NCBI RefSeq assembly: GCF_008087625.1
Contig: NZ_CP042997.1
Span: 2,046,001-2,110,000, forward strand
From: Aquisphaera giovannonii
GTDB taxonomy: Bacteria > Planctomycetota > Planctomycetia > Isosphaerales > Isosphaeraceae
Length of the DNA stretch: 64,000 nt
Direction of reading: 5' to 3'
Both the position numbers and the translations under genes were made by a program. Every line of letters starts with the position of its first letter. The stretch's first letter is position 1. The notes under the pieces were generated by a model. That model had not been told where the DNA came from. It searched no databases and saw only the letters and a list, made by a program, of their open reading frames with translations. Positions 906 to 64,000 of this stretch are shown here, in pieces.

Positions 906-1700
906 ATGAGTCCGCGACCGCATGATGGACCTGCGGAAGGAGGACTAATATGTTCGTTGACACGGCTCGTGCAGGATGAGCGTCAGGTCGACCAGCTCCG
1001 AGAGACGCTGAGCTGCTTCAGCCATCGCTGCCGCAACATCCTCAACGGCATGAAGATGAGCCTCTATTTCGTGCGACGGTCGGCGTCCGGCTCGCTCCCC
1101 CCGTGGTGGGAGGAGCTGGAGGCGAGCTACGGGGGGATGGAGCGACTCTTCGACCACCTTCAGACGATCTACCGGCCGATGCCCCTCTCGGCGATCGAGG
1201 CGAAGGTCGGGTCGCTCATCCGCGACCTCGGCGCGACGTGGGGCGACCGGTTCGCCGCCTCCGGCCGGGTGCTGGAGCTGGCGCCGCCCGCCACCGAGGC
1301 GACCGGCTCGTTCGACCCGATGCGGCTCAGCATGGGGCTGGAGGCCTTCCTCCGCTGGAGGAGCGCGGACATGCCCCCCGGCTGGCGGGCCCGCCTGGAG
1401 TGGCGGACCGAGAAAGGGCGGTTCCAGGCCTGCTGGCAGGAAGCGGGCGGCCCGGAGCCGCCGCCGGGAGCCCCGCCCGAGGCCGCCGACGCAGGCCATG
1501 CCGCCCCCGCCCCGCCGGATACGCTCGCCCTGCCGCTCCTGACCCGGGTCGTCGCGGCGCACCGGGGGACGCTCTCCTGGTCGCGCTCGCCGGGCCTCCG
1601 GGTCGAGTTCGGATGGCCGCTCGCGGAGCCGGCCGCGGCGGCCCCCGCCGGCGTCAGGGTCGGCCGCTCTCCCTTGACCGCCGGGCGGGGGCCGGCTTAG
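906..1700 (+). CDS. Degenerate histidine-kinase-like protein
   Basis: 264 residues from the ATG at 906 (AGGTG lies 6 bases before it). An H-box-like segment S-H-R-C-R-N-I-L-N-G-M-K sits near residue 39 and is followed by a helical region, resembling a DHp dimerisation and phosphoacceptor domain. The C-terminal half ends with L-P-L-L-T-R-V-V-A-A-H-R-G, which matches the G2-end of HATPase_c domains, but the Asn of the N-box is replaced (D-P-M-R-L-S-M-G-L-E-A-F-L-R) and no clear D-x-G-x-G is present. ATP binding is therefore doubtful. The protein may be a phosphotransferase of the ChpT type or an inactive kinase; the partner regulator is not in the window. The start is uncertain: TTG 957 and GTG 969 are in frame, and the strongest Shine-Dalgarno in the area serves an out-of-frame ATG at 950. 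Confidence 0.55.
   Translation: MSPRPHDGPAEGGLICSLTRLVQDERQVDQLRETLSCFSHRCRNILNGMKMSLYFVRRSASGSLPPWWEELEASYGGMERLFDHLQTIYRPMPLSAIEAKVGSLIRDLGATWGDRFAASGRVLELAPPATEATGSFDPMRLSMGLEAFLRWRSADMPPGWRARLEWRTEKGRFQACWQEAGGPEPPPGAPPEAADAGHAAPAPPDTLALPLLTRVVAAHRGTLSWSRSPGLRVEFGWPLAEPAAAAPAGVRVGRSPLTAGRGPA
937..979 (+). promoter_or_regulatory. Strong RBS with 9-codon out-of-frame leader ORF
   Basis: AAGGAGG at 937-943 is followed 6 bases later by ATG 950, encoding only M-F-V-D-T-A-R-A-G before TGA (977-979). The ORF overlaps the histidine-kinase-like gene in another frame; a +1 shift at GGA-TGA would enter that gene at E (978). It could be a leader, a frameshift site or a sequence error. Confidence 0.45.
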
Positions 1701-1718
1701 GATGCGTCTGCCGTCTCG

Positions 1719-1793
1719 CGGGGTGTAGCGCAGCCTGGTTAGCGCGCCTGCCTTGGGAGCAGGAGGTCACCAGTTCGAATCTGGTCACCCCGA
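1719..1793 (+). tRNA. tRNA-Pro (anticodon TGG)
   Basis: Complete cloverleaf of 75 bases: acceptor CGGGGTG/CACCCCG with discriminator A, D arm GCGC...GCGC, anticodon stem CCTGC/GCAGG with loop CTTGGGA (anticodon TGG), and T arm ACCAG-TTCGAAT-CTGGT. CCA is not encoded. It reads proline CCN codons. It starts 19 bases after the kinase-like gene on the same strand. Confidence 0.96.
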
Positions 1794-1886
1794 TTCTCGC
1801 CATGAACGGGCGGACGTACGAAGGACGAGGCCCGCACGGCGGGGCCTTCGTCGCCGATCGAGTCACTTTGGGCGGGGTACTTTGCG

Positions 1887-2606
1887 GTGGCCAGCATCGA
1901 GGAACCCGCCAAGGAACGGGCGGCGCGGGAGGCGGCCGGGCTCGTCCAGTCGGGGATGACCGTCGGGCTGGGCTCCGGCACGACGGCGGCGATCCTGGTC
2001 CGGCGCCTGGGCGAGCGCATGCGGGAGGAGGGGCTGCGGTTCGTCGGCGTGCCCACGAGCGTGGCCACCGCCGAGCTGGCCCGCGGCCTGGGGATCCCGC
2101 TCCGCGAGCTCGACGAGGTGGACGCGCTGGACATCAACCTCGACGGCGCGGACGAGGTCGACCCGCAGTTCCGGATGATCAAGGGGCGGGGCGGGGCCCT
2201 GCTCAGGGAGAAGATCGTCGCCTGCGTCGCCCGCCGGCGGGTGACGGTCATCACCCAGGACAAGCGGGTCTCGAGGCTCGGCCAGAAGGCCCCGCTGCCG
2301 GTCGAGGTCAGCTCGATCGGGCTGCAGCACACCGAACGCCGGCTCCGGGCGATGGGCGCGGTGACGCGGATCCGCATGGGCCCTCCCGGGGTGCCGTTCC
2401 GGACCGACGGCGGCAACGCCATCATCGACTGCACCTTCGCGGGCCGGCATGAGCCGGAGGAGCTCGACGGGCTCCTCCGGTCCGTGGTCGGCGTCTTCGA
2501 GACGGGCCTCTTCCTGGGCCTCTGCGACCTCCTGGTCGTGGGGACCGACGACGGCGTCGAGCAGGTCCCCTCGACCTCGCCGCGCAACCGGGGCTGCGGC
2601 GGCTAA
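1887..2606 (+). CDS. rpiA: Ribose-5-phosphate isomerase A
   Basis: 239 residues from a GTG start. It interconverts ribose 5-phosphate and ribulose 5-phosphate in the non-oxidative pentose phosphate pathway, in the cytoplasm. Family motifs are present in order: V-G-L-G-S-G-T-T-A (phosphate-binding loop, near residue 26), the D-x-D-L-N-L-D-G-A-D-E-V-D-like segment (here D-A-L-D-I-N-L-D-G-A-D-E-V-D with catalytic Asp residues), I-K-G-R-G-G-A-L-L-R-E-K with the catalytic Glu and Lys, and D-G-G-N-A-I-I-D-C near the C-terminus. Length fits the family (about 220-235). The next gene, deoC, converges on it with a 28-base gap and also handles pentose phosphates. Confidence 0.96.
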   Translation: MASIEEPAKERAAREAAGLVQSGMTVGLGSGTTAAILVRRLGERMREEGLRFVGVPTSVATAELARGLGIPLRELDEVDALDINLDGADEVDPQFRMIKGRGGALLREKIVACVARRRVTVITQDKRVSRLGQKAPLPVEVSSIGLQHTERRLRAMGAVTRIRMGPPGVPFRTDGGNAIIDCTFAGRHEPEELDGLLRSVVGVFETGLFLGLCDLLVVGTDDGVEQVPSTSPRNRGCGG

Positions 2607-2634
2607 TCCCATGAGCCGGACCAGGTCGACCGGC

Positions 2635-3324
2635 TCACCGCGCCAGGCGGGCCTTCAGCTCGTCGAGGATCTCCGCGGTCCTCGAGGCGCCGAAGCGGTC
2701 GCACCCGAGCTCCACCACGGCGATGGCCTGATCCAGCGTCCGGACGCCGCCGGCCGCCTTGAGCTTCACGCCCGGCGGGGACGCCTCGCGCATCAGGATC
2801 AGGTCCGCGTTCGTGGCGCCGCCGGTGCCGTAGCCCGTGGAGGTCTTCACGTAGTCGGCCCCGACCTCGCCGCAGATCCGGCAGAGGCGCGTCTTCTGGG
2901 CGTCGTCGAGGTAGCAGTTCTCGAAGATGACCTTGACGATCCCCCCGCCGTCGTGGGCCGCGCGGGTCACCTCGGCGATGTCCCGCGACACGGCGTCCCA
3001 TTTGCCGCCGATCGCCTGGCCGATGTTGATCACCATGTCCAGCTCGGTGGCGCCGTCGTCCATCGCCCGCTGCGCCTCGAACACCTTGACGGCCGTGGCG
3101 TGCCCCCCATGGGGGAAGCCGATCGTGGTCCCGACGGCCACGTCGGTGCCCTTGAGGATTCCCGAGGCCAGGGCGACGGCGTAAGGTTTGATGCAGACGC
3201 TCGCCACGCGGTACCTCGCCGCCAGCTCGCAGCCGGCCTCGAGCTCCGCGTCCGTGAGCGTAGGCCCCAGGAGCGAATGGTCGATCCGGCGGGCGATGAG
3301 TTCGTAGGTCAGCGTCTGTCCCAT
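2635..3324 (-). CDS. deoC: Deoxyribose-phosphate aldolase
   Basis: 229 residues, class I aldolase that splits 2-deoxyribose 5-phosphate into glyceraldehyde 3-phosphate and acetaldehyde in deoxynucleoside salvage. Motifs: D-H-S-L-L-G-P at residues 15-21, G-F-P-H-G, E-L-D-M-V-I-N, the Schiff-base lysine in D-Y-V-K-T-S-T-G-Y-G, and the proton-relay lysine in V-K-L-K-A-A-G-G-V-R. Length is normal. It lies tail to tail with rpiA and is divergent from the CoA-binding gene (189-base gap). No other deo genes are visible. Confidence 0.95.
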   Translation of the reverse strand: MGQTLTYELIARRIDHSLLGPTLTDAELEAGCELAARYRVASVCIKPYAVALASGILKGTDVAVGTTIGFPHGGHATAVKVFEAQRAMDDGATELDMVINIGQAIGGKWDAVSRDIAEVTRAAHDGGGIVKVIFENCYLDDAQKTRLCRICGEVGADYVKTSTGYGTGGATNADLILMREASPPGVKLKAAGGVRTLDQAIAVVELGCDRFGASRTAEILDELKARLAR

Positions 3325-49994: not shown

Positions 49995-50094
49995 TCGCGT
50001 TGGCCCTTCGGTGCGAGCGGCACGGCGATGATTTTCATGGCGGGCGGACCCCATCCCGCGCCGCAGAAAATGGCCGGCGGGGCCTGTTTTCCGG

Positions 50095-50124
50095 TTCAGC
50101 AATCCGGCCCCGGCTCGTTATGAT
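50095..50124 (+). promoter_or_regulatory. Possible promoter of the VWA-caspase gene
   Basis: TATGAT (50119-50124) with weak TTCAGC (50095-50100) 18 bases upstream; transcript would begin about 45 bases before ATG 50176. Confidence 0.4.
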
Positions 50125-50175
50125 CCATGGATCGAGCGAGGCATTTCCGCTCCGGCAACTCGAGGTACCACGTTC

Positions 50176-53100
50176 ATGGCGGACGAGCGCGCCCGGCCCT
50201 CCCGGCCTTCCTGGAAGCGAGCAGGGGGCGATCCCCGGGCCGTCGAGCCGTCGTCCCACGCCTGGTCCCGGCGGAGCGTCTCCTCGGTCGCCCGCCCCGA
50301 TGCCCCCCGAACGAAGACCTGGAAGGTGGCCGGCGTGGTCGCGGCCCTGGCCGCCTGCATCGCGCTGATCCTGTTCCTGATCCTCGTCTTCCGCCCGCCC
50401 CGCCCCGCCGCCGTCGTGCTGGTGGGGGCCGACTACGCGGGCAACCTGGCCGTCCCGCACAACCTGCTGGGCTGGAAGGGGCTCCAGGGGCTGGAGGCGG
50501 TATCGAGGACGCCGCCCCGCTTCTCGCTCTTCCCGCCCCCGATGCTGCAGCTGGTGAGGGGCGGGGGCACGCCGCTGAACCTGGCCGAGGACTGGAAGGC
50601 CCTGGTCGACGACCTGAAGGTGTCCGCCAAGGGCTACCGGACGCTCCTGATCGCGGTCGCGCTCCACGGCGGCACGACCGCGGACTCGGCCTACCTGCTC
50701 CCCGGCAAGGCCACGGGGCGGGAGGCGGATCGGCTCGACCTGCTGCAGGTCATCCGGTCGATGGACGAGCTGCCGCAGGAGCAGAACAAGGTCCTGGTCC
50801 TCGAGGGCGCCCTCGTGCCGGCGGACTGGCGGCTCGGGATGCTCTACAACGACTTCGGCCGCCGGCTCAGGGACCTCGAGCCCGAGATCCGGAAGGTGAA
50901 GAACCTCTGGGTGCTCAGCGGCTGCGACGTGGACCAGCAATGCTGGGCGTCGGAGGGCATGGGCCGCACCGCGTTCTTCCACTACATCATCGAGGCCCTG
51001 AGCGGCGAGGCGGCCGGCCACGGCATGCGGCTGAACCTCCAGACGCTCCACGACTACGTCCGCCGCAAGGTCCGCAACTGGGCCTGGAACGCGCGGGGGG
51101 CCATCCAGGAGCCGGTACTCCTGCCGAGGACGGCGGACACGGCGGGGAGCGGCGGCGAGCCACCTCGCCGCCCGGCGGCCGGCGTCCACCTCGCCACGGC
51201 GGAGGCGGCCCCCGCCTCCGAGACCCCGCCGGAGCTCGACCGGACGATGCTGTCGGAGCGATGGCGGGCCTTCCACGAGCTGGACGGCCTGCTGCCCCAC
51301 CCCTCCACCTACTCGCCCCGGCGATGGCGCGAATACCGCGCGACCCTGGTCCGGCTCGAAGAGCTGGCCCGCGCGGGCGCCTCGGCCCAGCAGCTCGCGC
51401 CGCTGGACGAGCGGCTGGGCGTCCTGGGCGCCCGGCTCCGCGCCGACAGGTCCTTCGCGAAGATCACGGAGTCGCCCCAGCACAACCTCGTCATGGGCGT
51501 GGTCCAGGGGGCGGTGATCGACCCCAGGCGGGGGAGCGAGCCCGAATTCAGCCGGCTGTGGAGCCCGCCCCCGGGCACCGACCCGTCGAAGGTGTGGGAC
51601 GAGCTCCGGGGCAAGTTCCCGGACGGCGACGCCGAGCCGGCCCAGCCGCTCCGCTGCCGGGTCGACGACTACCTGCTTCAGCGGGCCGCCGCCGACCCGC
51701 AGCATGACCTCGCGACCGCGGTCGACCGGCTGAGGCAGCAGACGCGCGGCACGCAGTATCCCCAGCCGGTCGAGGCCCACTTCGCGGCCATGCTGGAGCG
51801 GTCCCTCCGCGGCGAGCGGGCCCGCCCCCAGGCCTTCTGGCCGCGCGTCCGGCGGGCGCTCCTGGTGCGTCGCCTCGCGGAGCGGGTGACGCTCGGCATC
51901 CCGGAGGGCCGGCCCGGCTATGCCGCCAGCGAGCGGCTCGCCCCCTGGCTCCGCGAGCTCGTGGACCGGGCCGACGACCAGCGTCGCCTCGGCGAGGACC
52001 AGCTCCTCGCCTCGGACGAGGCGGCCTGGGCCCGCGCGGATCAGTCCCTGGCCGCCGCGGAGCAGCTCTACCGCGAGGCGTCCTCGCGCGGCGAGCTGGT
52101 CCGCAAGGCGATCCTCGCCCGCGACCTCGCCCTCTCGACGCTGCCGGACTACGCCCGGTGGATGGGGCGTCGCCGGCCGGAGGACCTCGGCAAGGACGAC
52201 CTCGCCGCGGTGGTCCTGGAGCTCTGGGACCAGGTGCATCGCCTCTCCGATCGCCTGGAGGCGCCGGGCGAGGAATCGGCGGCCTCGCTCGAGAAGCTCC
52301 AGAAGGGACTCTCCACGGGCCTGGAGGCGCTCGGCAGGCGGTTCCGCCAGCACGCCGGCGGCCTGGCGGGTGATCGTCGCCCGGAGGAGTGCGAGCCCAC
52401 CGCGTCCGCGGCGGCCGTGCCGTTCGCCGACGCCGCGGAGGACTCGCTCCGCGGGGCCCTCTGGGACCGACTGGACGCCATCCGGAAGCATGACCGGAAG
52501 CTCTCCGAGGGCGGCGATACCCCCGAGCCGGCGGCGGCCGACGCCGACCGCGTCGCCGACTCCCTCCGCCGCCGGAGCCGCCTCCAGGGACGCATGGCGA
52601 TGGCGACGCTCGGGCGCGACCGGTTCGACGCGCCGGCGTTCAAGGATGCCCCCCCGTTCGATCAGGTCCTCAAGCGGATCGAGAGCGCCTTCGAGGAGGG
52701 CGGCCAGCAGGCCTGGTGGCGGTCCATCGCCGAGGCCGGGGACGCGATCGGGCTGCGATGGCGGGGCCTGGGCCCCGAGGTCGAGGGCCTGACGAAGGAG
52801 GAAGGTCCCGACGCCGACCCGGCGCGGCTCCTGACCAGGCTCTCCCTCGCCGAGCGCCTCGATCGCCTGATCGACGGGGGCGAGGAGCCGCTCCCGGACT
52901 CCCGGCCCGAGGCCGCGTCGCTCGGCCGCGGGCTGCGGATCCGCGGCCTCCTGCTCTGGCTGGCCGAGCGAGCGTGGCGAGACCACTGGTTCGACGAGGA
53001 TCCGAAGGCCGTCTCCCCCTATTACCGCACGGTCGCCACGCGGCTGGTCGGCGACGCGGCCCGGATCGCCGCGAAGGGGCCCGACCTCGCGCGCATCCGC

Positions 53101-55338
53101 CAGCTCGTGGCCAGGAACGATCGCCTGAAGCTCGAGGGCCCTTCGAAGATCATCATGACGACCGAGCCGGCCGCCGACGCCACCTACCGGATCGCGGCGG
53201 AGGGGGATCCGGAGTCCATCCCCCCCGGCCTGCCCGTGATCCGGCCGCGCGTCGAGCCCGAGCTCGGGCTCCTCGACGGCGCGGCGGGGTACCGCCTGGC
53301 CCCCTGGCGGACCGGCGGCGACGTCGCCCGCTTCTCCGTGTCCTCGGCGACGATCCGCTCCGCGGAGTCCGACGAGTCCATGGACCGGCCCTTCATCCGG
53401 ACCTCGCCGCTCCTGATCGAGGGCGTCTTCCGCGGCCAGCTCTTCACCAAGCGAACGGACGTGGAGCTGCACCCCGTCCCCGACGAGGTCTCGGTCAACC
53501 CCGCCCCGGTCGACCCCCGGGCCAGCCTGGCGGTCCGGGCCGACGGCGAGCTGCTCGCCCGCTTCGGCGCCGGCAGCGGGTCCATCGCCATCGTGCTCGA
53601 CATGTCCGGGAGCATGAGGGAGCCGACCCCCTCCGGGCGTTCGAAGCTGGCCGAGGCGAAGATCGCCCTCGGCCAGGTCCTGGAGATCATCCCCGCGGGG
53701 ACCACCGTCAGCCTCTGGACCTTCAGCCAGATCGGCGCCAAGGAAGCCGACCTGTTCGAGGACGACCCGAGGCACCTGGCCCCGGAGAAGACCATCCAGC
53801 GCCTCAGGGAGCCGGTGCGATGGGACCGGGCGGAGCTCCCCGGGCTGGTCGCCCGGCTGGAGGCGTACCGGCCGTTCTGCGACACCCCCCTCGTGGAGGC
53901 CATGTGGAGGGCGGCCGCGACCGACCTCGGGAAGGCCCAGGGGCTGAAGACGCTGCTCGTGCTCACCGACGGGAATGACACCGAATTCCAGAAGCATCGC
54001 GAGTTCAACCCCTTGAAGGACGGCAAGCCGACCTACAAGGACATCCCGGAGTTCATCCGCACCGCCTTCGACCCGACCGGCGTGCAGATCAATATGATCT
54101 ACTTCGACACCGCGAGCGACGGCGGCAAGCAGCTCGAGGAGGCCAGGAAGAACTTCGAGGAGCCCCTGAGGGGCCTCGACCGGCCCGGCACGTTCACGGC
54201 GGTGAAGGACGTGGATCAGCTGCTCGCGGGCCTGAAGAAGGGGATCCGCCAGGAGCTGGCCTGCCGCATCCGCGACGAGGCCGGCAAGCCGGTGTCCGAG
54301 GAGCTCCTGGGCGTCACGCGGGTCGGCGAGCCTGACCGGTGGTGGCCCGACGGGCTGGACGCCGGCCTCTACACCCTCAGCGTGCTCGCCGACCACACCT
54401 ACGAGCACCAGGTGGAGCTGAAGAAGGGCGAACGCCTGCTCGTCAGGCTCGTGGACGCCGGCGGGAAGATCGACTTCCGTCGCGACCTCTACAGCGGCGA
54501 CTTCGCCGACCGGGCCGCGGAGGATCGCTCGGAATGGCGGGCGAGCGGCCTGGCGACCGTCATCCCGGCCCAGCAGGCCGGGGACCGGATCCAGGTCCTG
54601 GCGTCCCTGGAGCAGACGGCGATGAGGGTGCCCGACCCGGATCCCATCCGTCAGGTCCACCCCAGGATGAGCTGGATGCGGCTCGCGGCGCAGGGCATCC
54701 CCAATCCCTCGGGCGCCTTCTCGACCCGGTGGCGCGACCTGGGCGAGTATCCCGCGCCGGCCTGGGTGGCCGACGTGCCGCGATGGCCGCGGGATCCCGC
54801 CGGCGCCGGGCCCGCGCAGCCCGTGCTCCGGATCTGGTGGCTGGCGCCCGGCCTGAAGGACCGGTCCCTCCCGGCGATCGCGCTGGACGGCGACCTGCCG
54901 CGCCGGCTCCGGCTCGCCGACGGCGAGGAGGTGGTGCTCGAGGGCCTGGGGATCGAAAGCCACAAGGTCGAGGTGAGCCCGGGCAGCCGCGTCGATAGGC
55001 GCTGCCTCGCGATCCGAATCGCGTACCCCAAGGATCAGCTCCACATCGTCGACCCCAGGAGCCTGCTCGCCGCGGGCATCGGCACCGAGGGCGCCGAGCT
55101 CCGGATCTTCTCCCGGGCCCGTCGCTCCACCGCGCTCCTCTGGCCGGTCAGCGAGACGAGCCTCGACGCGCTCAAGTCCGTCGGCCTGTACCCGGTGGAC
55201 GAGCTCCTCAAGCTGGCCGAGAAGCAGCAGACCGCCGCCGCGATCACGCTGCCGATCCCTCGGCGAGGGAACCTGCCGGAGCCCCCGCCGCCGCTGCGAG
55301 ACCCGCGCAGGCCCCTGGGGCCCCCGGCGCCGGGATGA
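50176..55338 (+). CDS. Giant membrane protein with caspase-like head and VWA domain
   Basis: 1,720 residues. A basic N-terminus and one membrane helix at about 51-73 are followed by a caspase-like domain: L-I-A-V-A-L-H-G-G-T-T-A-D-S-A-Y-L-L-P (His164) and N-L-W-V-L-S-G-C-D-V-D-Q-Q-C-W (Cys250), the order of the p20 catalytic dyad; W-x-S-E-G and F-F-H-Y-I-I-E-A-L follow as in bacterial metacaspases. A long helical region (about 350-900) is rich in Arg, Leu and Glu. A VWA domain occupies about 1136-1330 with the MIDAS D-M-S-G-S (D1142, S1144, S1146) and L-V-L-T-D-G-N-D-T. The rest to the end is mixed beta-rich. VWA domains bind metal and protein partners. Whether the caspase dyad is active is unknown. 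A same-strand partner gene follows. Confidence 0.82.
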   Translation: MADERARPSRPSWKRAGGDPRAVEPSSHAWSRRSVSSVARPDAPRTKTWKVAGVVAALAACIALILFLILVFRPPRPAAVVLVGADYAGNLAVPHNLLGWKGLQGLEAVSRTPPRFSLFPPPMLQLVRGGGTPLNLAEDWKALVDDLKVSAKGYRTLLIAVALHGGTTADSAYLLPGKATGREADRLDLLQVIRSMDELPQEQNKVLVLEGALVPADWRLGMLYNDFGRRLRDLEPEIRKVKNLWVLSGCDVDQQCWASEGMGRTAFFHYIIEALSGEAAGHGMRLNLQTLHDYVRRKVRNWAWNARGAIQEPVLLPRTADTAGSGGEPPRRPAAGVHLATAEAAPASETPPELDRTMLSERWRAFHELDGLLPHPSTYSPRRWREYRATLVRLEELARAGASAQQLAPLDERLGVLGARLRADRSFAKITESPQHNLVMGVVQGAVIDPRRGSEPEFSRLWSPPPGTDPSKVWDELRGKFPDGDAEPAQPLRCRVDDYLLQRAAADPQHDLATAVDRLRQQTRGTQYPQPVEAHFAAMLERSLRGERARPQAFWPRVRRALLVRRLAERVTLGIPEGRPGYAASERLAPWLRELVDRADDQRRLGEDQLLASDEAAWARADQSLAAAEQLYREASSRGELVRKAILARDLALSTLPDYARWMGRRRPEDLGKDDLAAVVLELWDQVHRLSDRLEAPGEESAASLEKLQKGLSTGLEALGRRFRQHAGGLAGDRRPEECEPTASAAAVPFADAAEDSLRGALWDRLDAIRKHDRKLSEGGDTPEPAAADADRVADSLRRRSRLQGRMAMATLGRDRFDAPAFKDAPPFDQVLKRIESAFEEGGQQAWWRSIAEAGDAIGLRWRGLGPEVEGLTKEEGPDADPARLLTRLSLAERLDRLIDGGEEPLPDSRPEAASLGRGLRIRGLLLWLAERAWRDHWFDEDPKAVSPYYRTVATRLVGDAARIAAKGPDLARIRQLVARNDRLKLEGPSKIIMTTEPAADATYRIAAEGDPESIPPGLPVIRPRVEPELGLLDGAAGYRLAPWRTGGDVARFSVSSATIRSAESDESMDRPFIRTSPLLIEGVFRGQLFTKRTDVELHPVPDEVSVNPAPVDPRASLAVRADGELLARFGAGSGSIAIVLDMSGSMREPTPSGRSKLAEAKIALGQVLEIIPAGTTVSLWTFSQIGAKEADLFEDDPRHLAPEKTIQRLREPVRWDRAELPGLVARLEAYRPFCDTPLVEAMWRAAATDLGKAQGLKTLLVLTDGNDTEFQKHREFNPLKDGKPTYKDIPEFIRTAFDPTGVQINMIYFDTASDGGKQLEEARKNFEEPLRGLDRPGTFTAVKDVDQLLAGLKKGIRQELACRIRDEAGKPVSEELLGVTRVGEPDRWWPDGLDAGLYTLSVLADHTYEHQVELKKGERLLVRLVDAGGKIDFRRDLYSGDFADRAAEDRSEWRASGLATVIPAQQAGDRIQVLASLEQTAMRVPDPDPIRQVHPRMSWMRLAAQGIPNPSGAFSTRWRDLGEYPAPAWVADVPRWPRDPAGAGPAQPVLRIWWLAPGLKDRSLPAIALDGDLPRRLRLADGEEVVLEGLGIESHKVEVSPGSRVDRRCLAIRIAYPKDQLHIVDPRSLLAAGIGTEGAELRIFSRARRSTALLWPVSETSLDALKSVGLYPVDELLKLAEKQQTAAAITLPIPRRGNLPEPPPPLRDPRRPLGPPAPG

Positions 55339-55437
55339 CCGGCCCTCGGCCCGAGCGTCCCCGCGGACGAGGCCCGACGAAGTGACCCGAGACGGAGCCC
55401 ATCGGATGAGGCGGACCGCCGCCGCAGGAGCGAGACG

Positions 55438-58400
55438 ATGACCAGGCCTTCCACCACGGGGCGCGGCCGATGGCGGGACGCGGGAGCCGCGACCCGCACG
55501 CGGCCGTCGGGGCCCACGAAAGCAGGCAAGGGGCTGCTGGCGGCCCTGGTCTCCGCGATCGTGCTCGCGACGGTCGGATTCCTCGGATTCCTCATCTACA
55601 TCTTCGTCTTCGGCCCGGAAAATCGGACGTCCCTCATCCCCTTCCTGGTCACCTCGTATCGGAGGGATCAGATCTCGCCGGTCCCGGGGGCCGCGGCCGA
55701 GCGGCGGGCGATGGCCGCGACGGGCCTCCAGCTTCGCCACGATCCCCTGGACGCCGACGGCGACCTCACCCTGGAGAACTTCGCCACCAAGCTGAACAAC
55801 CTCCGCGGCGAGAAGCCCGCGGTGCCGATCGTGGCCTACGTTTCCGCGTACGCGATGGTGGACGAAGCGGGCCGGGTCCAGATCCTCGCCAGCCGGTCCG
55901 ACCCGTTCTCGGCCGACTCCATGCTCCCGCTCGGCCAGGTGCTCAGGGCCCTTCGCGAGTGCCCCTCTCGCCAGAAGCTGCTGATCCTGGACATCATGAA
56001 GCCCACGAGCGACCCGCTGGACCTCGGCGGGACCCCCGACGGGGTCGCCGACGCGGTCCCCCTGGAGGTCGCCGCGGCCGCCGTGGGGAAGGAGCAGGGG
56101 GGCACCCCGCCGCTCGTGCTCGTCGCCTGCTCGCCCGGCGAGACGGGGCTCTGGTCGGAGCACCTCGGCCGGTCGGTATTCGGCCATTTCTTCGCCGGGG
56201 CGTTCGCGGACACGAAGGCGGACCTGGACGGGGGCGGCACCCTCTCCGCCTCCGAGCTCGAGAAGTACCTCGCGGAGAGGGTGAATGCCTACGCGCGCAA
56301 GACCCGAGGCGTCACCCAGCGCCCGTACCTGATCGGGGACGGCGACTTCTCGATCGGTGCGATCGTCCCGGCGGCGGCATCGGCCCCGGTCGCCTCCCGT
56401 GCGGCGGACAAGGACGCACCCGCCGAGGAGGCCGCGGGCGGCGACCCGGCGAAGTCCGCCGAGAAGGGAAAGCCCGCGGCGACGGCGGTCGCGAAGAAGG
56501 ACGAAGGCTCGGCGGCCGCCCCATCGGACGGCCTCGCCTACCCCGATTGGCTGAAGAAGGGCTGGGAGCTGAGGCGGGACTGGTGGGCCGACCCGACGAC
56601 CGGCAGGTTCGCCGGCGCGGCGTCCCCTCGGGCCTTCCGCAGGCTCGGGGCGATCCTCCTCCGCGCCGAGGCCCGGTGGCGATCCGGCGACGACCCGGCC
56701 GCCGTCGCGGCCGATCTCCAGGCGGGCGTGGCGCCCCTCGTCGAGGCGATGAACCACGACCGGGCCGTCGACGGCCCCTCGGCCATCCGCTCGGTCGGGC
56801 AGGCCGTGGCGGGCGGTTGGAAGCCGGACGCCGCGCTGGTCTCCAGGCTCCGCGTGCTCCTGGACGACCTCCGGAACTCGGACCAGCCCGCCGATGCGGA
56901 TGCCGCGGCCGCCCGCAAGAAGGCGGCGGGCGAGCTCGCCGCCGCGATCAAGGCCAGGCCGAGGCCGTCCCTGGAGCTGGCCGGGATCCTGATCGAGGCC
57001 ACGTCCGGCGTCCGCCTCATCCCCGACACGTTCCGGCTCCTCGACGGCCTGATCCGGGACAGCGGCGCGAAGGCGGACATCGTGGAGCTGAGGCTCTTCC
57101 AGGACCTCGCGGTGCGGGCCACGGCCCCTCCGGCCGAGTGGCCCGACGAGGCCGCCGAGGCCGCCAGGCTCGCCTGGGATTCGCTCTGCCTCGCCGAGCG
57201 GGCCGCCCACCATCCCTCGGCGTTCCCCTGGACCGCCGGCCTCCTCGACCACGCCGACCGCGCCCGCCACGAGGCCCGCGTGCTGCTCCTCGCCGACGTC
57301 CGGGGATTCGACTCCTGGCGGGGCGTGCAGGAGGCCTGGAGCAGGGCGGCGGAGGAGCTGAGGAAGGCGGACGACGCCCAGACGCTCATCGAGGAGGCGC
57401 GGACCGAGCTCGACCGGTCGCGGACGCTCCTGTCGGATGACCTCGCGTTCCTCCAGGCGTCGGGCCGGCCCGGGCTGGAGACGGCCTGGCACGAGGCGGC
57501 GAGGGCGTCGGCCGAGGTGGCCCACATCCTGGGGCCGGCGCGCGACGGCAAGGCCGACCCGGGCGACGGAGCCGGGCGTCCCCCGATCGAGACGCTGCTG
57601 AACGAGCTGGAGCCGGCGCTCCGCGCGCTCCGGGCCGGCGACGAGGCGCTGCTGCGGCCCTTCACCGACGAGGCGATCCGCGAGGCAATCGCCCGCACCG
57701 AGGCGGCGAGGCCCGACCCGAGGGCGGCGGCGGAGATCGACGCCCTGCTCGCCAGCCCCTTGCCGCCGCCCGACGCCAGGCCGCGGCTGATCGCCGCCTG
57801 CCGGGCGCTCGATGCCAGGCTCGCGGCGTCGGCCCAGGCCTCCATCCCGGACGCGGCGGAGGCCGCCGAGGCCGGCAGCGCCGCCCGGCTGGAGCAGGCT
57901 CGCCCGCTGGTCGTCCGCCGGGCCAGGCGGCTCCAGACGCTCCTCTCCCTGCTGGGCGAGGAGGCGCTCGCCAGCAACCTCTGCGCGGGCGTCGAGCTGG
58001 AGCCGGAGATCCGGTCGATGGCGGGCGGCTCGGCCTCGACCGCATCGACGCCGGGGGAGGTCATCGTCAAGCTCTGGGGCAGCCACGCCCGGATAGCCGC
58101 GGCGGCCTGGTGCCGGCTGAATGCCCTTCTGGAACGGTCGGAGCGGGGCGACGACGCCGCGGGCTGGATCGCCCCGCCGTTCCTGCCGGTCGTGACCGCG
58201 AACCCGCGGTACGCGGCCAGGCAGGCCGAGTCGCAGCGACACGGCCGCTGGCTCGCCGCGCGATACGTCCAGGAGGAGCGCGACCTCCACGAGCGCATGG
58301 CCCCCGCCCGATTCTACGAGGAGGCCGCGGCGGAATGCCAGGGCCACGAGGACGCGGCCGCGCCGGCGATCGAGCTCGGCCTCGCCTCCGCCGCGACCCC

Positions 58401-60477
58401 GACGCTGTCCTCGTCGGGCGGCTTGAGCGTCGGCGTCAGGATCGCTCTCATCGGCGGGCCGGGTGCCACCGCCCAGGCGAGGGTCGCCGTCCATACGCCC
58501 GGCGACGGCCGCCTGAAAGTCCAGATGGCCCAGGAGGAGCCGGTCGATTTGAGCTCGCTGAGCCCCGCGGTCGTCAACCTCGAGCTGCGATGGGACGAGG
58601 ACGGCGGGCCGGTCGACCGGGAGCCCCCGCCCGGATTCCTGTTCGAGGCCACCCTGGCCGACGGCCGGGCGTTCCACCTCAAGGTCCCCATTCGCATCGA
58701 GTCCGGCCGGATGCTCCCCTCGTTCGCCGTCGTCCCGAAGGACGGCGACGCCGTCGGGGTGCCGCTCGACCCGTTCCGCCTGAGGACGCTCCCCGGCCGG
58801 CAGCCGTTCCAGCTCTCGCTCCGGAACCCTTCGCCTCGGGCTCGCGAGGTGAAGGTGGAGCTCATGGCCGGCGACGCCGTCCTGGCGAGCACCGGCGAGA
58901 AGCCGATCCCGCTGCCCGGGAACTCGACGGTCCCGGTCAAGGCCCTCGCACCGGCCTCGGCCGGGATGACGCCCCCCAAGGAGAACGAGCCGCTCATCGA
59001 GGCTCCCGCCGCACTCCGCCTGCGGATGAGCGAGCCCGCCGCGGGCGGCGGCGGACTCGTCGTGGTGCAACCGATCCGCCCGGAGATCGCCAACCCGGCC
59101 GACTACGTCGGCGTCATGCTGGCCCAGTTCACGCCGGAGTTCCAGGGCCAGCCGAATCAACTCAAGCTGGTCTTCCGCGCCCTGCCGGGGATGACCGGCC
59201 CGCCCTGCCAGGTCGAGCTCGTCCTCCCCGCCGACCGGGCCCTGTTCCCCGCCCTCCTCAGCCCCGAGACGGCGGGCAAGCGTGCCGACCTGCTCAGGAA
59301 AGGCGACGACCTCACGCTCGTCGCCGAGGGCCTCCGGCTCGATCCCGGCGTGGCCCAGCAGAGGGGCAGCTTCCAGGTCAACCTCGACGGGGTGAAGAGG
59401 GCGCTCTGGTATCAGGCGCAGTTCAACAACGCCGGCGGCGTCGAACGCGCGGTCGTCGAGGCCGCCCCGCCGCGCGTCCGGTTCCGCACCGAGCGGACCG
59501 TGAAGCCGAACGAGTCCACCGACCTCCGGGTCTTCTACCAGGTGGACAAGGCGCCGGCGAACTCCCGGCTAACCTTCGCGCTGGGCCGTCCCGCCGCCGG
59601 GGGCTTCGCGGCCGACAAGGAGGCCGAGCCGCGGCCTCCCCGGCGCAGCCACGTCGGCCTCGCGGTCGGCGACGGCGGCGTGCTGCTCTTCGAGGCCGCG
59701 GTCGAGGACTGGGCCGACGCGTATCGCCTGAACATCCGAGGCAAGCGTCTGGCCGTCGCGCGGCTGCTCGACCCGGCCGGCCGGGAGCTCGACCGCTACG
59801 AGGAGGAGCTCGTCCTCGACGATCAGCCGCCGGCAATCAGGGAGATCGCGGTCCCCCCGGAGGTTGAGGACGGGGGCGCACCGTTCGACGCCCGGATCGT
59901 CGTGACGCCGCCCGTCTCGGGCGTCAGGGAGGTCGTGTACGTCGCGGGGCCGAAGGCGCTCGACGACGCGGAATTCGCGAAGGCCCACGCCGAGAAGAAG
60001 ACGGCGCAGGCCAGGCGCTCCGGGGGCGACCGCGAATGGATCGCCCCGGTATCAATCCCGAAGGACGCGACGGGCCGCCTCTTCATCACGGCGAGGGCGG
60101 AGAGCGGCGTCGGGCTGACGGGGCTCCGCGGCGACGTCGTCAAGATCCGCCCCCGCCCCGCCCCGGCCGACGACATGGCCGCCAAGAAGAAGGACCAGCC
60201 GCCCGCCCCGGGGGCCATCGAGGGGACGGTCATCGAGGCCGGGTTGCCGCAGCCGAACCTGCGGGTCCTCCTGATGAACGAGAAGGAGAAGGACCCGGCG
60301 AAGGCCGTGGTGAAGAACACAACGACCGACGACGACGGCAAGTTCAAGCTCACCGATATCGCGCCGGGCGAATACTACATCTACAGCATGAACGACGTCT
60401 CCAAGCGTTACTACTACAAGCCGGTCAGCGTACCGCCGGGCCAGACCGCGACGCTCAAGATGGAGCTCCTTCGCTAA
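55438..60477 (+). CDS. Giant membrane protein with degenerate caspase-like head and carboxypeptidase-regulatory-like tail
   Basis: 1,679 residues. Basic N-terminus and one membrane helix at about 33-58, as in the preceding protein. A caspase-like segment at about 100-300 keeps the order of the family: V-A-Y-V-S-A-Y-A-M-V-D-E replaces the S-G-H-G of the catalytic His, while L-V-L-V-A-C-S-P-G-E keeps a Cys at 231; D-L-D-G-G-G-T-L-S-A-S-E-L recalls the acidic loop of caspase-like proteins. The middle 900 residues are helical and Ala/Arg/Glu-rich, then beta-rich domains; residues about 1593-1679 form a carboxypeptidase-regulatory-like beta domain with D-D-D-G-K-F-K-L-T-D-I-A-P-G-E-Y. Probably a pseudo-protease paired with the previous gene (98-base gap). 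Confidence 0.78.
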   Translation: MTRPSTTGRGRWRDAGAATRTRPSGPTKAGKGLLAALVSAIVLATVGFLGFLIYIFVFGPENRTSLIPFLVTSYRRDQISPVPGAAAERRAMAATGLQLRHDPLDADGDLTLENFATKLNNLRGEKPAVPIVAYVSAYAMVDEAGRVQILASRSDPFSADSMLPLGQVLRALRECPSRQKLLILDIMKPTSDPLDLGGTPDGVADAVPLEVAAAAVGKEQGGTPPLVLVACSPGETGLWSEHLGRSVFGHFFAGAFADTKADLDGGGTLSASELEKYLAERVNAYARKTRGVTQRPYLIGDGDFSIGAIVPAAASAPVASRAADKDAPAEEAAGGDPAKSAEKGKPAATAVAKKDEGSAAAPSDGLAYPDWLKKGWELRRDWWADPTTGRFAGAASPRAFRRLGAILLRAEARWRSGDDPAAVAADLQAGVAPLVEAMNHDRAVDGPSAIRSVGQAVAGGWKPDAALVSRLRVLLDDLRNSDQPADADAAAARKKAAGELAAAIKARPRPSLELAGILIEATSGVRLIPDTFRLLDGLIRDSGAKADIVELRLFQDLAVRATAPPAEWPDEAAEAARLAWDSLCLAERAAHHPSAFPWTAGLLDHADRARHEARVLLLADVRGFDSWRGVQEAWSRAAEELRKADDAQTLIEEARTELDRSRTLLSDDLAFLQASGRPGLETAWHEAARASAEVAHILGPARDGKADPGDGAGRPPIETLLNELEPALRALRAGDEALLRPFTDEAIREAIARTEAARPDPRAAAEIDALLASPLPPPDARPRLIAACRALDARLAASAQASIPDAAEAAEAGSAARLEQARPLVVRRARRLQTLLSLLGEEALASNLCAGVELEPEIRSMAGGSASTASTPGEVIVKLWGSHARIAAAAWCRLNALLERSERGDDAAGWIAPPFLPVVTANPRYAARQAESQRHGRWLAARYVQEERDLHERMAPARFYEEAAAECQGHEDAAAPAIELGLASAATPTLSSSGGLSVGVRIALIGGPGATAQARVAVHTPGDGRLKVQMAQEEPVDLSSLSPAVVNLELRWDEDGGPVDREPPPGFLFEATLADGRAFHLKVPIRIESGRMLPSFAVVPKDGDAVGVPLDPFRLRTLPGRQPFQLSLRNPSPRAREVKVELMAGDAVLASTGEKPIPLPGNSTVPVKALAPASAGMTPPKENEPLIEAPAALRLRMSEPAAGGGGLVVVQPIRPEIANPADYVGVMLAQFTPEFQGQPNQLKLVFRALPGMTGPPCQVELVLPADRALFPALLSPETAGKRADLLRKGDDLTLVAEGLRLDPGVAQQRGSFQVNLDGVKRALWYQAQFNNAGGVERAVVEAAPPRVRFRTERTVKPNESTDLRVFYQVDKAPANSRLTFALGRPAAGGFAADKEAEPRPPRRSHVGLAVGDGGVLLFEAAVEDWADAYRLNIRGKRLAVARLLDPAGRELDRYEEELVLDDQPPAIREIAVPPEVEDGGAPFDARIVVTPPVSGVREVVYVAGPKALDDAEFAKAHAEKKTAQARRSGGDREWIAPVSIPKDATGRLFITARAESGVGLTGLRGDVVKIRPRPAPADDMAAKKKDQPPAPGAIEGTVIEAGLPQPNLRVLLMNEKEKDPAKAVVKNTTTDDDGKFKLTDIAPGEYYIYSMNDVSKRYYYKPVSVPPGQTATLKMELLR

Positions 60478-60731
60478 CGGCCGCGGCCGCAGAGGCCGGT
60501 CGTCCCCCCCCGTAGGAGGCGGCTGCCGGGCCGCGGCGCCGGAGTCGGCTCGCGTGTTCGGTGGTTGGATCCGACTCCTATCGGGGCCGGGCAGAGGGAC
60601 TTGCGGGCGCTGGAAGCACCGGTCGGGGTGCATGAGCGACCCGCGGGGCGTGGATGGTCCCCGCAGGATCATCGAGGCGAAGCGGGCCCCGGATCGTGCG
60701 CTCGCGCCGGCGTCGAGGGACTTCCGCGATC
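60478..60731. other. Short convergent gap
   Basis: About 250 bases between the caspase-like gene and tssM, which end facing each other. It holds an NotI-like GC palindrome (CGGCCGCGGCCG) but no T-run terminator or leftover TssM coding sequence. Confidence 0.45.
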
Positions 60732-62312
60732 CTAGCTTCCCCGGCCGGCGAACCGCATGACGAGGAGGCCGACGATCCCCAGGACGAGGACGCCCGCGAC
60801 GGCCATGAAGATCTTCCGGACGACGCCGGCGGTCCGCGCGAAGGTCGCGTCCTCGGCCATGGCCTGCTCGGTCCAGGAGACGAGGTCCTGCTCCTGGACC
60901 AGGCGGTTCAGGACGCCGGAGGCGAACGCACGCTCCGCGTCGTCCCCCTCGCCGGTGGCGGCGAAGTAGCAGCCGCCGAACATCAGCTTCTCGTCGGCGA
61001 CCGCGGGGATGCAGTCGCGCACCAGCCTGGCCAGCCGCTCCCGACGCTCGCGGATCTTGCCGAGGAACTGGAAGAGGGCCTGGTTGCCGCGGAGCACCTC
61101 CGCGATCTCGTCGATGCTCCGGTTCGATTCGACGCGGAAGAGGGAGTAGACCATCGTGCCGAAGAGGCTGTTGATCACCCATTCGACCGAGCCCTCCACC
61201 TTCGCCGGCACCTCCTCCTCGCGGACGTCCGGGACGAGCGGGAAGCGCTGTCCCATCCGGTTGTTGAGCTGGGAGGCGGGCAGGCGGCCCACCAGGTCGG
61301 CGAAGCCGGGCACGCGTTCCAGGTCGGCGATCAGGAACAGGATGGGGCAGCGCATCCGGAAGCTGGCGAAGCTCTCCTGCAGGTCCTGGCGGCAGGCCGC
61401 GGCGATTTCCTCCGGGCGCGAGCGGGGGTCGGCCGAGGAGATCGGCAGGACGACGAGCACGCCGTTCACCGGGCAGAACCCCAGCCGGTCGCGCCGGATC
61501 AGTCGGCAGAGGTGGCGGAGCCGGGCGAGGTACTTCTCGCGGTCGATGTTACGGACCGGCCGGCCGGCGGCCCGGCCCGCGTCGATCTCCTTGCGGGCGT
61601 CCTCCATGGCGCCCTCGAGGCCGCCGGTGGCCATCCCCACGCCCATGGTCTTGAACGGGTCCGGCTGTTCTTCCATCATCGTGGCGAGGACCGCCCCCCC
61701 GCCGCCGCTCTCCTGGCCGATGAACGAGGGATCCTGCTGGCCCAGCAGCGAGGCGCCGGGGCAGGTCACCCAGATGCTGTCGCGGTCCGCCGTCACGTGG
61801 AGCGGCTCCAGCTTGTCGGTCGGCACCTGCTTGACCCGGGCCTTGATGCCCGCCGCCTTGAAGAGGGCCTCCTCGGAGCCGGAGCTCCAGCCCAGGACGA
61901 GGTACAGCGGCGTGGCGTCGAGCCGGATCTCGGCGCGGGAGAGGGCCTCCATGGCCTGGGCCCACGCCCGGTCGATGTCCGGGAAGTCCGAGGCCTCCTC
62001 CTGGACCTCCATGCTGAGGATCCGGTAGAGCCACCATCCCAGCCAGAGCAGGACGTACAGGCTCAGGAAGAAGAGCGGCAGCCAGTTCCGGGCGAGGGCG
62101 GGGTACTGAGGGATCAGGTTCTGGAGCCCGACCGTCGGGAGCCGGTTGATCGCCCCCAGGAGGGCCAGGACGATCGCCAGCAGGACGATGCGGCCGGACC
62201 AGCGCGCGGCGGGGGCCGCCTTCTCCGCGGCCTCCTGCGAGGAGAACATCGGGAAGACGAGTCCCCAGAGCCAGCACGCCCATTCCCAGGGCTTGGCGAT
62301 GATCTTGATCAT
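60732..62312 (-). CDS. tssM: Short TssM/IcmF-like T6SS membrane protein
   Basis: 526 residues, less than half of a normal TssM (about 1,100). Two N-terminal membrane helices (about 41-58 and 78-98) bracket a short loop, then a cytoplasmic IcmF-type domain: a degenerate NTP site Y-L-V-L-G-W-S-S-G-S-E-E-A-L-F (no Walker A Lys), N-G-V-L-V-V-L-P-I, P-I-L-F-L-I-A-D-L-E-R-V-P-G-F (the family's K-C-D-L-L position here A-D-L-E) and a helical region to residue 490. The third membrane helix is at about 503-522 and the protein stops 4 residues later, so the large periplasmic domain that contacts TssJ is missing. It lies 16 bases after tssL. It would anchor the inner-membrane complex. Confidence 0.8.
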   Translation of the reverse strand: MIKIIAKPWEWACWLWGLVFPMFSSQEAAEKAAPAARWSGRIVLLAIVLALLGAINRLPTVGLQNLIPQYPALARNWLPLFFLSLYVLLWLGWWLYRILSMEVQEEASDFPDIDRAWAQAMEALSRAEIRLDATPLYLVLGWSSGSEEALFKAAGIKARVKQVPTDKLEPLHVTADRDSIWVTCPGASLLGQQDPSFIGQESGGGGAVLATMMEEQPDPFKTMGVGMATGGLEGAMEDARKEIDAGRAAGRPVRNIDREKYLARLRHLCRLIRRDRLGFCPVNGVLVVLPISSADPRSRPEEIAAACRQDLQESFASFRMRCPILFLIADLERVPGFADLVGRLPASQLNNRMGQRFPLVPDVREEEVPAKVEGSVEWVINSLFGTMVYSLFRVESNRSIDEIAEVLRGNQALFQFLGKIRERRERLARLVRDCIPAVADEKLMFGGCYFAATGEGDDAERAFASGVLNRLVQEQDLVSWTEQAMAEDATFARTAGVVRKIFMAVAGVLVLGIVGLLVMRFAGRGS

Positions 62313-62328
62313 GGTGCCCTCGGCGCCC

Positions 62329-62991
62329 TCAGCGACCCAGGAAGCCCAGGGCGCTCAGCAGGATCAGGAAGACGATGAGCAGGGCCAGGCAGAGGCCCCC
62401 GTAGACGGCGATGGCCCGGCCCAGGGCCGCCCGGCCCGCGAGCGGCTCGACGTTCGTCCCGGCGCCCAGGTCGCGGGGGGCGGGCCAGGGCGAGGTCCGC
62501 GTGACCTGCGGGCGCATCTCCTCCATCAGCTCCCGGACCTTCGCCGGGTTCTCCAGGTACTTCCCGCGGAAGCCCAGCGCCGTGCAGAGGAAGAACGCCT
62601 CCAGGGCGTCCGGCCCGGGCGGGGTCGCGACCCGCGGGGCGTTCGGGCGCCGCAGGGCGATCTCGGCCTGGTCCCAGAACTTCCAGGCCCGGTCGCGGCT
62701 GCCGTAGAGGGCCAGCTCCAGGATCCGCTCCTTCCAGGCGTCGGCCCACGGGCTGTACACGATGAACAGCTCGTCGATCCAGCAGGTCAGCGCGTAGCGG
62801 GCCCCCAGGAAGACCGAGCCGTCGCCCGCGTAGTCGGCCAGCCGGCGCACCTCGGTCTCGGATCGCAGGCGATCCATGAGCTGACGCTGCTCGGCCTCGA
62901 GGTCGAGGTCCTCCCCCTCGTCGAGCCGGTCCTTCAGGTCCAGGGCGTAGGTCATCACCGGGAAGACCAGTTCGCTGAGCTGTGGGGTCAT
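62329..62991 (-). CDS. tssL: TssL/DotU-like T6SS membrane protein
   Basis: 220 residues from ATG 62991. The cytoplasmic helical bundle has the DotU pattern: F-P-V-M-T-Y-A-L near the N-terminus, Y-A-L-T-C-W-I-D-E-L-F-I (the conserved C-x-x-D-E), W-K-E-R-I-L-E-L-A-L-Y-G, F-F-L-C-T-A-L-G-F-R-G-K-Y, then a single membrane helix at about 193-217 (V-Y-G-G-L-C-L-A-L-L-I-V-F-L-I). No peptidoglycan-binding OmpA domain is fused. TssL binds TssM and the baseplate TssK at the inner membrane. Gene order tssK-tssL-tssM matches T6SS clusters. Confidence 0.9.
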   Translation of the reverse strand: MTPQLSELVFPVMTYALDLKDRLDEGEDLDLEAEQRQLMDRLRSETEVRRLADYAGDGSVFLGARYALTCWIDELFIVYSPWADAWKERILELALYGSRDRAWKFWDQAEIALRRPNAPRVATPPGPDALEAFFLCTALGFRGKYLENPAKVRELMEEMRPQVTRTSPWPAPRDLGAGTNVEPLAGRAALGRAIAVYGGLCLALLIVFLILLSALGFLGR

Positions 62992-63079
62992 GATTCCTTC
63001 GATTGAGGGTCGGGGTTGGGGAGGATCGGGGCCGCCGTCGCCGCGGCCGCGCGGGGCCGATGGGCCGTCGCGCCTCGGA

Positions 63080-64000
63080 TCAGGGCTTCCTCGCCGCCCC
63101 CGCGCCGAGCATGAACAGGGCGAAGCGGAAGGGCATCTCCGAGGCGAGCCTCAGGCTGATGGTCTCCTGGCCGTCGATGTTACCGACAATCTTGCTCTCG
63201 TTGAACCGGATGGCCAGCGTCAGGGACCGTTCCACGTACTGCCATTCGTTCTGCTGCTGCTCGCGGTTGATCTCGAAGTAGATGAGGCCCTTGTCGCGGG
63301 GGAGGGCCTGCGGCAGCGACGGCGCGGGGACGTGGCTGAACTTCAGGCCGAGGTCGCCCAGCCGGTAGATCGTCTCGATGCGGTCGGAGCTCCCCACCTT
63401 CATGTCGATGCCGCGCGGGCCCATGAGCTCCACGCAGGCGTCGGCGTCGAGCGGGCTGCGGACGCCGAAGTAGAGGTGGACCGACTGGTCCAGCCAGCCC
63501 CGCTCCAGCGAGACCTGCATCCTCAGCCCGTTGCCCACGAACGGGCGCTCCTGGTAGTCGGGCTCCGGCACGATCGAGAGCAGGTCGTCGAGGTAGTTCT
63601 TGATCCGGTGGAAGCAGCCGCCGAGGTCGTCGTGGTCGTACCGCGGGATCGCCGGCGTGCGCCGGGTCTGGCTGAAGACCGAGAGCTGGCCGACCAGCCG
63701 GCAGAGCTCGAGGTAGGCCGGGAGCGGGTGGATCCCCTCCAGGAAGGCGAGGTTCGTCAGCGTCGCGTACGCCTCGTTGAGCTCGCGGAGCTGGGAGAAG
63801 ATCAGCACGTCCCCCGGCGCGGTGCTCTCCAGGCTCAGGCCCCGCGAGACCGCCTGGTTCGCGAGCTTCTCGACCTTCCGGCCGATCCGGTCGTAGACCA
63901 CCTGGAGGATCTCCACCGACAGCTCGTGCCAGGCGTCGCAGGCCAGCAGCGGCGGGATGTAGCCGGCGTCGAGCTGCGGCGTCGCCTCGGCCCGCTCGGA
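63080..64000 (-). CDS. tssK: TssK T6SS baseplate subunit, C-terminal part (cut by window end)
   Basis: The frame is open from base 64000 to 63080, giving the last 306 residues of a protein of about 440. D-A-G-Y-I-P-P-L-L-A near the visible start is a conserved TssK segment, as are L-R-E-L-N-E-A-Y-A-T-L-T-N-L, H-P-L-P-A-Y-L-E-L-C-R-L-V-G-Q-L, D-L-G-G-C-F-H-R-I-K-N-Y-L and E-R-S-L-T-L-A-I-R near the C-terminus. TssK is a trimeric baseplate adaptor that joins the sheath and baseplate to TssL/TssM. Upstream T6SS genes (tssB/C, hcp, clpV) must lie outside the window, if present. Confidence 0.88.
   Translation of the reverse strand, partial: SERAEATPQLDAGYIPPLLACDAWHELSVEILQVVYDRIGRKVEKLANQAVSRGLSLESTAPGDVLIFSQLRELNEAYATLTNLAFLEGIHPLPAYLELCRLVGQLSVFSQTRRTPAIPRYDHDDLGGCFHRIKNYLDDLLSIVPEPDYQERPFVGNGLRMQVSLERGWLDQSVHLYFGVRSPLDADACVELMGPRGIDMKVGSSDRIETIYRLGDLGLKFSHVPAPSLPQALPRDKGLIYFEINREQQQNEWQYVERSLTLAIRFNESKIVGNIDGQETISLRLASEMPFRFALFMLGAGAARKP

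Follow-up and report, generated by a model that had tools for sequence, protein, structure and literature searches.

A short TssM and two giant bitopic proteins at a candidate Planctomycetia-type type VI secretion membrane platform in Aquisphaera giovannonii

The canonical type VI secretion system, T6SS(i), has a membrane complex of TssJ, TssL and TssM, in which the C-terminal domain of TssM binds TssJ and is needed for T6SS function (PMC4256274) and TssJ is considered a central factor in nucleation and anchoring of the complex (PMC10564176). Other arrangements have been described. The T6SS(iii) of Bacteroidota is a precedent for a phylum swapping the canonical membrane complex for unrelated proteins, TssNQOPR (PMC10781749); TssJ is absent from the T6SS of Acinetobacter, where envelope proteins peculiar to the lineage, TsmK among them, make up for it (PMC10564176); and in tssM1 of Citrobacter rodentium CTS1 the reading frame stops ahead of the TssJ-binding C-terminal domain (PMC4256274). 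T6SS genes in Planctomycetes have been mentioned in a review (PMC11385963). Here we describe a tssK-tssL-tssM module at the right edge of a 64,000-nucleotide stretch (the window; G000:C1:2046001-2110000, on contig NZ_CP042997.1) of the 10.5-Mb genome of the planctomycete Aquisphaera giovannonii. We propose that this module is the membrane platform of a genuine Planctomycetia-type T6SS, in which giant proteins encoded next to it most likely replace the periplasmic part otherwise provided by TssJ and the C-terminal domain of TssM (TssM-C), a reading to which we give a probability of about 0.68; the short-TssM variant of the T6SS is itself well supported.

The tssM gene (60732..62312, minus strand) encodes a short form of 526 residues, with three transmembrane (TM) helices at residues 42–60, 77–95 and 501–519 and a cytoplasmic domain matched by IcmF-related_N (PF14331, 1.8e-18). 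Its helices and cytoplasmic domain are like those of canonical TssM, but the whole periplasmic domain is gone. It forms an operon-like run, all on the minus strand, with tssL (DotU; 62329..62991), a short form of 220 residues recognised by Pfam and NCBIfam profiles (DotU, PF09850, 1e-18, above the Pfam cut-off; the NCBIfam cut-off is not reached), and with tssK, the single copy in the whole genome, whose 3' part occupies 63080..64000 (minus strand) and which continues past the window to about G000:C1:2110516 to encode a full product of 478 residues (T6SS_VasE, PF05936, 1.3e-35, plus TIGR03353). An earlier reading of this stretch from the letters alone, hereafter the sequence-only reading, had described a partial tssK, a tssL and a tssM-like gene in one direction and had picked out the motif ADLERVPGF in the cytoplasmic domain of TssM; the motif is there, the open reading frame coordinates confirm the three genes, and the Pfam and NCBIfam profiles place their products inside the TssK, TssL and TssM families. 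It was also right that TssM halts just past its last helix, although the tail after the third helix has 7 residues and not 4, and that no coding remnant follows. The gap between the stop of tssM (60732) and the end of the convergent gene (60477), assigned to neither strand (60478..60731), measures 254 bp and contains no TssM remnant and no slippage-prone A-tract, and IcmF_C (PF06744) has no match anywhere in the genome, whatever the reading frame. The TssM of the closest named relative, Aquisphaera insulae, is 80% identical.

The remaining components are encoded elsewhere in the genome. At a distance of 1.07 Mb from tssKLM, a cluster for tail and baseplate contains tssA, tssB, tssC, hcp, tagJ/impE, tssE, tssF and tssG, together with genes for a Ser/Thr kinase-FGE-type fusion and a WD40-caspase protein; a ClpV gene lies about 6 kb past it (TIGR03345, 1292 bits against a cut-off of 885) and two VgrG are encoded at other sites (TIGR03361, above cut-off). 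The sheath proteins TssB (PF05591, 3.9e-58) and TssC (PF05943, 1.8e-133), Hcp (PF05638, 6.8e-36) and the baseplate proteins TssE, TssF and TssG (PF04965, PF05947 and PF06996) all match their families. The genes that the sequence-only reading had named as a check on its assignment (tssA, tssB, tssC, hcp, vgrG and clpV) are all present in the same genome, and no tssJ was found. The genome thus holds a near-full T6SS set minus TssJ and the TssM periplasmic domain: sheath, Hcp and VgrG, a TssE/F/G/K baseplate, ClpV and TssL are there, and a TssM with IcmF_C and a TssJ, the marks of a canonical T6SS(i), are not.

Compared with the described systems, the likeness to T6SS(i) is extensive, with TssA, TssB, TssC, Hcp, VgrG, TssE, TssF, TssG, TssK, ClpV and TssL recognisable and most of them above curated cut-offs, but tssKLM is far removed from the tail cluster in addition to the losses from the membrane complex. 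Bacteroidota are without any canonical membrane-complex homologues, whereas here the TssK, TssL and TssM platform remains and the loss is limited to the periplasmic part; both TssL and TssM, which TssNQOPR replace in T6SS(iii), are present, and TssNQOPR themselves were not searched for. The C-terminal part of TssM is retained in Acinetobacter, with a glycine-serine linker particular to that lineage, whereas in A. giovannonii the entire periplasmic domain is absent. In C. rodentium the short form has 807 residues and slippage yields a long form, which is needed, whereas the stop here falls right after the third helix and no long form is possible.

Short TssM is a rule of the class and not a peculiarity of this genome. 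Among 118 Planctomycetia genomes, 48 encode a short TssM and 47 a TssC, with both in 45 (Fisher p=2e-26), while profile searches with a positive Escherichia coli control found IcmF_C in 0/118 and TssJ (PF12790) in 0/118. The end point is likewise conserved, 57 of 61 TssM sequences from fetched loci ending 0–24 residues past the final helix; the other four are apparently cut by contig ends or have helices missed by a simple hydropathy rule. Two acidobacterial relatives have the same N-terminal domain in frames of 1437 and 1601 residues, and these were the only outside forms in our TssM tree, the long-TssM loci of other planctomycete classes having been left out because their flanks were too short. 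Two MAG (metagenome-assembled genome) contigs labelled Alphaproteobacteria and Candidatus Kuenenia (L077, L088) carry TssM nested within Planctomycetia in this tree, and are probably misbinned or transferred.

Other classes of the phylum have a different TssM. In a sample of 343 Planctomycetota genomes, IcmF-related_N was detected in 76, of which 13 belong to the class and 63 to other classes; its frames in the 13 are all 540–611 residues long, whereas in 57 of the 63 the best TssM frame exceeds 1,000 residues, other-class TssM having about 1,000–1,700. Profile matches to IcmF_C came from 23 genomes and to TssJ from 43, every one outside the class, and 42 of the 43 with TssJ also have IcmF-related_N. 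Since the same profiles succeed elsewhere in the phylum, the loss is confined to Planctomycetia within the genomes sampled, and since other classes keep a long TssM, mostly with TssJ, so is the short form. The sequence-only reading, which had proposed a divergent T6SS in a planctomycete with a shortened core or an unrelated outer part, is therefore upheld by the genes for the rest of the machine and by the class-wide loss, the missing part being intact in none of the relatives sampled; its scope needs correction, as the divergence is not confined to one organism. For the unrelated outer part we have a candidate, described below, in two giant bitopic proteins encoded beside tssM and tied to this kind of T6SS across the class, whose role would be to stand in for the periplasmic part.

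Giant A (50176..55338, 1720 residues, TM helix at 54–72) and giant B (55438..60477, 1679 residues, TM helix at 40–58) are encoded on the plus strand, convergent with tssM, and are our candidate periplasmic components. They are paralogues with about 930 N-terminal residues in common, made up of a basic tail predicted to be cytoplasmic, one TM helix, a degenerate caspase-like domain and a helical region. In the C-terminal part of giant A, beta domains surround a vWA domain whose MIDAS (metal ion-dependent adhesion site) residues are invariant, and the AlphaFold2 model of this giant matches vWA folds in the PDB (Z about 20, root mean square deviation (rmsd) 2.0 over 180 residues); the C-terminal part of giant B is a chain of beta-sandwich or Ig-like domains, the last of which is CNA-B/prealbumin-like (AlphaFold2 model, best Z 11.4, rmsd 1.8 over 80 residues). 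The caspase family profile PF00656 matches 2 of 12 giants, weakly, and a profile of the giants matches the caspase domain of the WD40-caspase protein at 4e-36. In an alignment read by eye the Cys of the Asp-x-Cys motif is absent from 12/12 giants and the His is kept in 4/12, so that the domain appears degenerate, without the catalytic His/Cys pair. Positive-inside charge counts indicate an N-in/C-out orientation for 19 of 23 giants and the opposite for one (p=1e-4), and the bulk of these proteins is therefore predicted to be periplasmic.

It was considered whether the giants carry the displaced periplasmic domain of TssM. This idea is not supported: in the PDB the two AlphaFold2 models resembled vWA folds, CNA-B and chains of Ig-like domains instead, and neither TssM nor TssJ was among the structures listed, although such a listing does not prove that they are absent. 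When the short TssM and the giants were compared with PDB sequences, only chance matches came up. We discarded a 3041-residue antisense open reading frame across the giants (50035-59160, minus strand) as a shadow of the GC-rich coding sequence opposite, since the plus-strand frames have a third-position GC content (GC3) of 0.94–0.95 and IcmF_C matches no frame. At one related locus (L105:11376-20037) giant B is split into two overlapping frames (704 and 957 residues), by a frameshift or an assembly error.

The distribution of the giants follows that of the short-TssM system. Defining a full-length giant as a profile match at E<=1e-30 in a frame of at least 1,200 residues, we found one in 41 of 50 T6SS-positive class genomes and in 0 of 68 T6SS-negative ones (p=2.6e-23, uncorrected for relatedness), where matches to the giant profile are limited to the caspase domain. 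The nine T6SS-positive genomes without a giant by profile include four fragmentary assemblies (G031, G033, G038, G043) and two (G063, G072) in which inspection shows a 1604-residue giant, tssM and a 1653-residue giant in a row, the giants being divergent. No full-length giant was found in the 63 phylum-sample genomes that have an other-class TssM. A 1648-residue giant does lie near the end of a small contig (G395:C54) of a genome from outside the class, with no detected IcmF-related_N and an assembly 83% complete.

Physical linkage points the same way. Among 59 short-TssM loci, fetched by TssM alone with up to 10 kb per side, a giant lies in the fetched stretch at 24, a lower bound because many contigs end earlier, and at 17 of these it is less than 1 kb from tssK, tssL or tssM; a rough estimate, with random positions for two giants in about 7 Mb, puts the chance expectation below 1. 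The order giant-tssM-giant on one strand recurs (L054, L081, L084, L085, L088, L100, L113, L114, L139, L140), the genes often overlapping or lying less than 150 bp apart, and copy numbers track each other, one genome (G047) having two tssM and four giants.

We therefore regard the giants, on the strength of this linkage, of their mutually exclusive distribution with TssM-C/TssJ and of their predicted topology, as the putative envelope-crossing part of the system. It follows from the known families that TssK, TssL and TssM form the inner-membrane dock for the baseplate, and TssK would tie the baseplate to TssL and the short TssM in the inner membrane. TssM would have been pared to three helices and its cytoplasmic domain, with loss of the periplasmic domain and of the lipoprotein TssJ, and one or two giants, each with its single helix beside TssM, would have taken over the task of holding the machine across the periplasm. 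This model requires the giants to bind to TssM and cross the periplasm, and makes firing dependent on them; their approximately 1,600 extracytoplasmic residues, with a dead caspase fold, a helical stalk and a vWA domain or Ig-like chain, would extend outward to the cell wall or outer membrane. In planctomycetes both membranes lie near one another at crateriform pits (PMC5394234). The planctomycete periplasm is otherwise wide and variable (PMC5394234), which would be a reason to trade the compact TssM-TssJ channel for long arms. That the two giant bitopic proteins replace the TssM-C/TssJ conduit so as to constitute a third T6SS membrane complex besides TssJLM and TssNQOPR, fitted to such a periplasm, seems to us probable, with a little less assurance than the reading as a whole.

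Several observations weigh against this proposal. The weakest step is the predicted physical contact between giants and TssM. Two T6SS-positive genomes have weaker giant matches (G007 and G024, frames of 1333 and 1689 residues), and in another (G082) tssM is present while TssC and a full-length giant were both not found. Giants lie far from tssM in G070, G091, G071 and G048, and one sublineage has a single giant only, mostly of about 1,300 residues (range about 1,300–1,900). As the structure comparisons brought up no likeness between the giants and the TssM periplasmic domain, the replacement would have to be an unrelated one, and the giants could instead be T6SS sensors, adhesins or regulators. 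The single-giant sublineage is represented by L049 and L057, and also by G015, G018, G022, G027, G029, G039 and G040; the TssM of L049 and L057 has two C-terminal helices plus one extra N-terminal helix. In the TssM tree two sequences of this lineage group weakly (79/82) with the acidobacterial long forms.

The best surviving alternative is that TssL and the short TssM suffice for docking and the giants are accessory proteins of this kind and not a replacement, which we consider unlikely. Intact-MIDAS vWA and CNA-B-like domains are typical of adhesins, and the genomes with giants unlinked from tssM are in keeping with an accessory role, but several families place tssM alone, without tssK or tssL, between two giants. 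Genomes with a long TssM have no giants, although many of these genomes also have TssJ and hence a canonical platform, and replacement fits this better than general T6SS sensing does.

It is considerably less probable that the TssM periplasmic domain or TssJ persists as a separate gene, too diverged for profiles. TssJ is short and fast-evolving, such that profile silence is not proof of absence, and its fold is transthyretin-like, as is the terminal domain of giant B; yet the profiles that detect TssJ and IcmF_C in other classes of the phylum find neither in this one, and the PDB searches with the giants list neither protein. We give still less credence to a tail held at the inner membrane only, without an envelope channel and with release by lysis or another exit. 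No outer-membrane component is known here, TssJ being unfound, but TssL, TssM, ClpV and VgrG are all retained, and recycling by ClpV implies repeated firing from living cells. Shortening of tssM by mutation, sequencing error or transcriptional slippage restoring a long form, as in C. rodentium, where slippage on a run of 11 A's gives tssM1 products of two lengths (PMC4256274), is refuted by the missing A-tract, the lack of room before the convergent gene, the absence of IcmF_C from every frame and the shared end point of 57/61 sequences.

In the open-access papers searched, a scope that excluded most subscription papers and all preprints, we found no description of a class in which TssK and TssL are kept, TssM is reduced to its cytoplasmic half and the partners are giant caspase-like proteins. 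Anchoring by the giants, if true, would be a new way to anchor a T6SS. Since the class keeps the rest of the machine without them, TssM-C and TssJ are exchangeable, and the inner-membrane docking job of TssM is separable from its envelope-crossing job. The way in which a T6SS spans a periplasm that is enlarged and variable (PMC5394234) becomes open to direct test. Because TssM is short, annotation models score the planctomycete protein far below cut-off (33 bits against 388 for TIGR03348 in A. giovannonii), and planctomycete T6SS may therefore be under-counted.

Some minor observations concern other genes. Adjoining tssG in the tail cluster (G000:C1:3168459-3175435; L036:6459-13435) are the Ser/Thr kinase fused to an FGE-sulfatase domain and the WD40-caspase protein, of 1548 residues, whose caspase domain apparently keeps both His and Cys, unlike that of the giants; relatives of this pair adjoin tssK in L039. 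A gene of a relative (L057:4047-4415) has a PAAR-like start, as judged by eye only. Tandem pairs of TssC paralogues occur in many class genomes (L042:3-1280 and 1457-3028; G112:C1:973732-976340; others), some of which have a third TssC-like gene of 500–800 residues further off, and it is possible that these paralogues form a mixed sheath.

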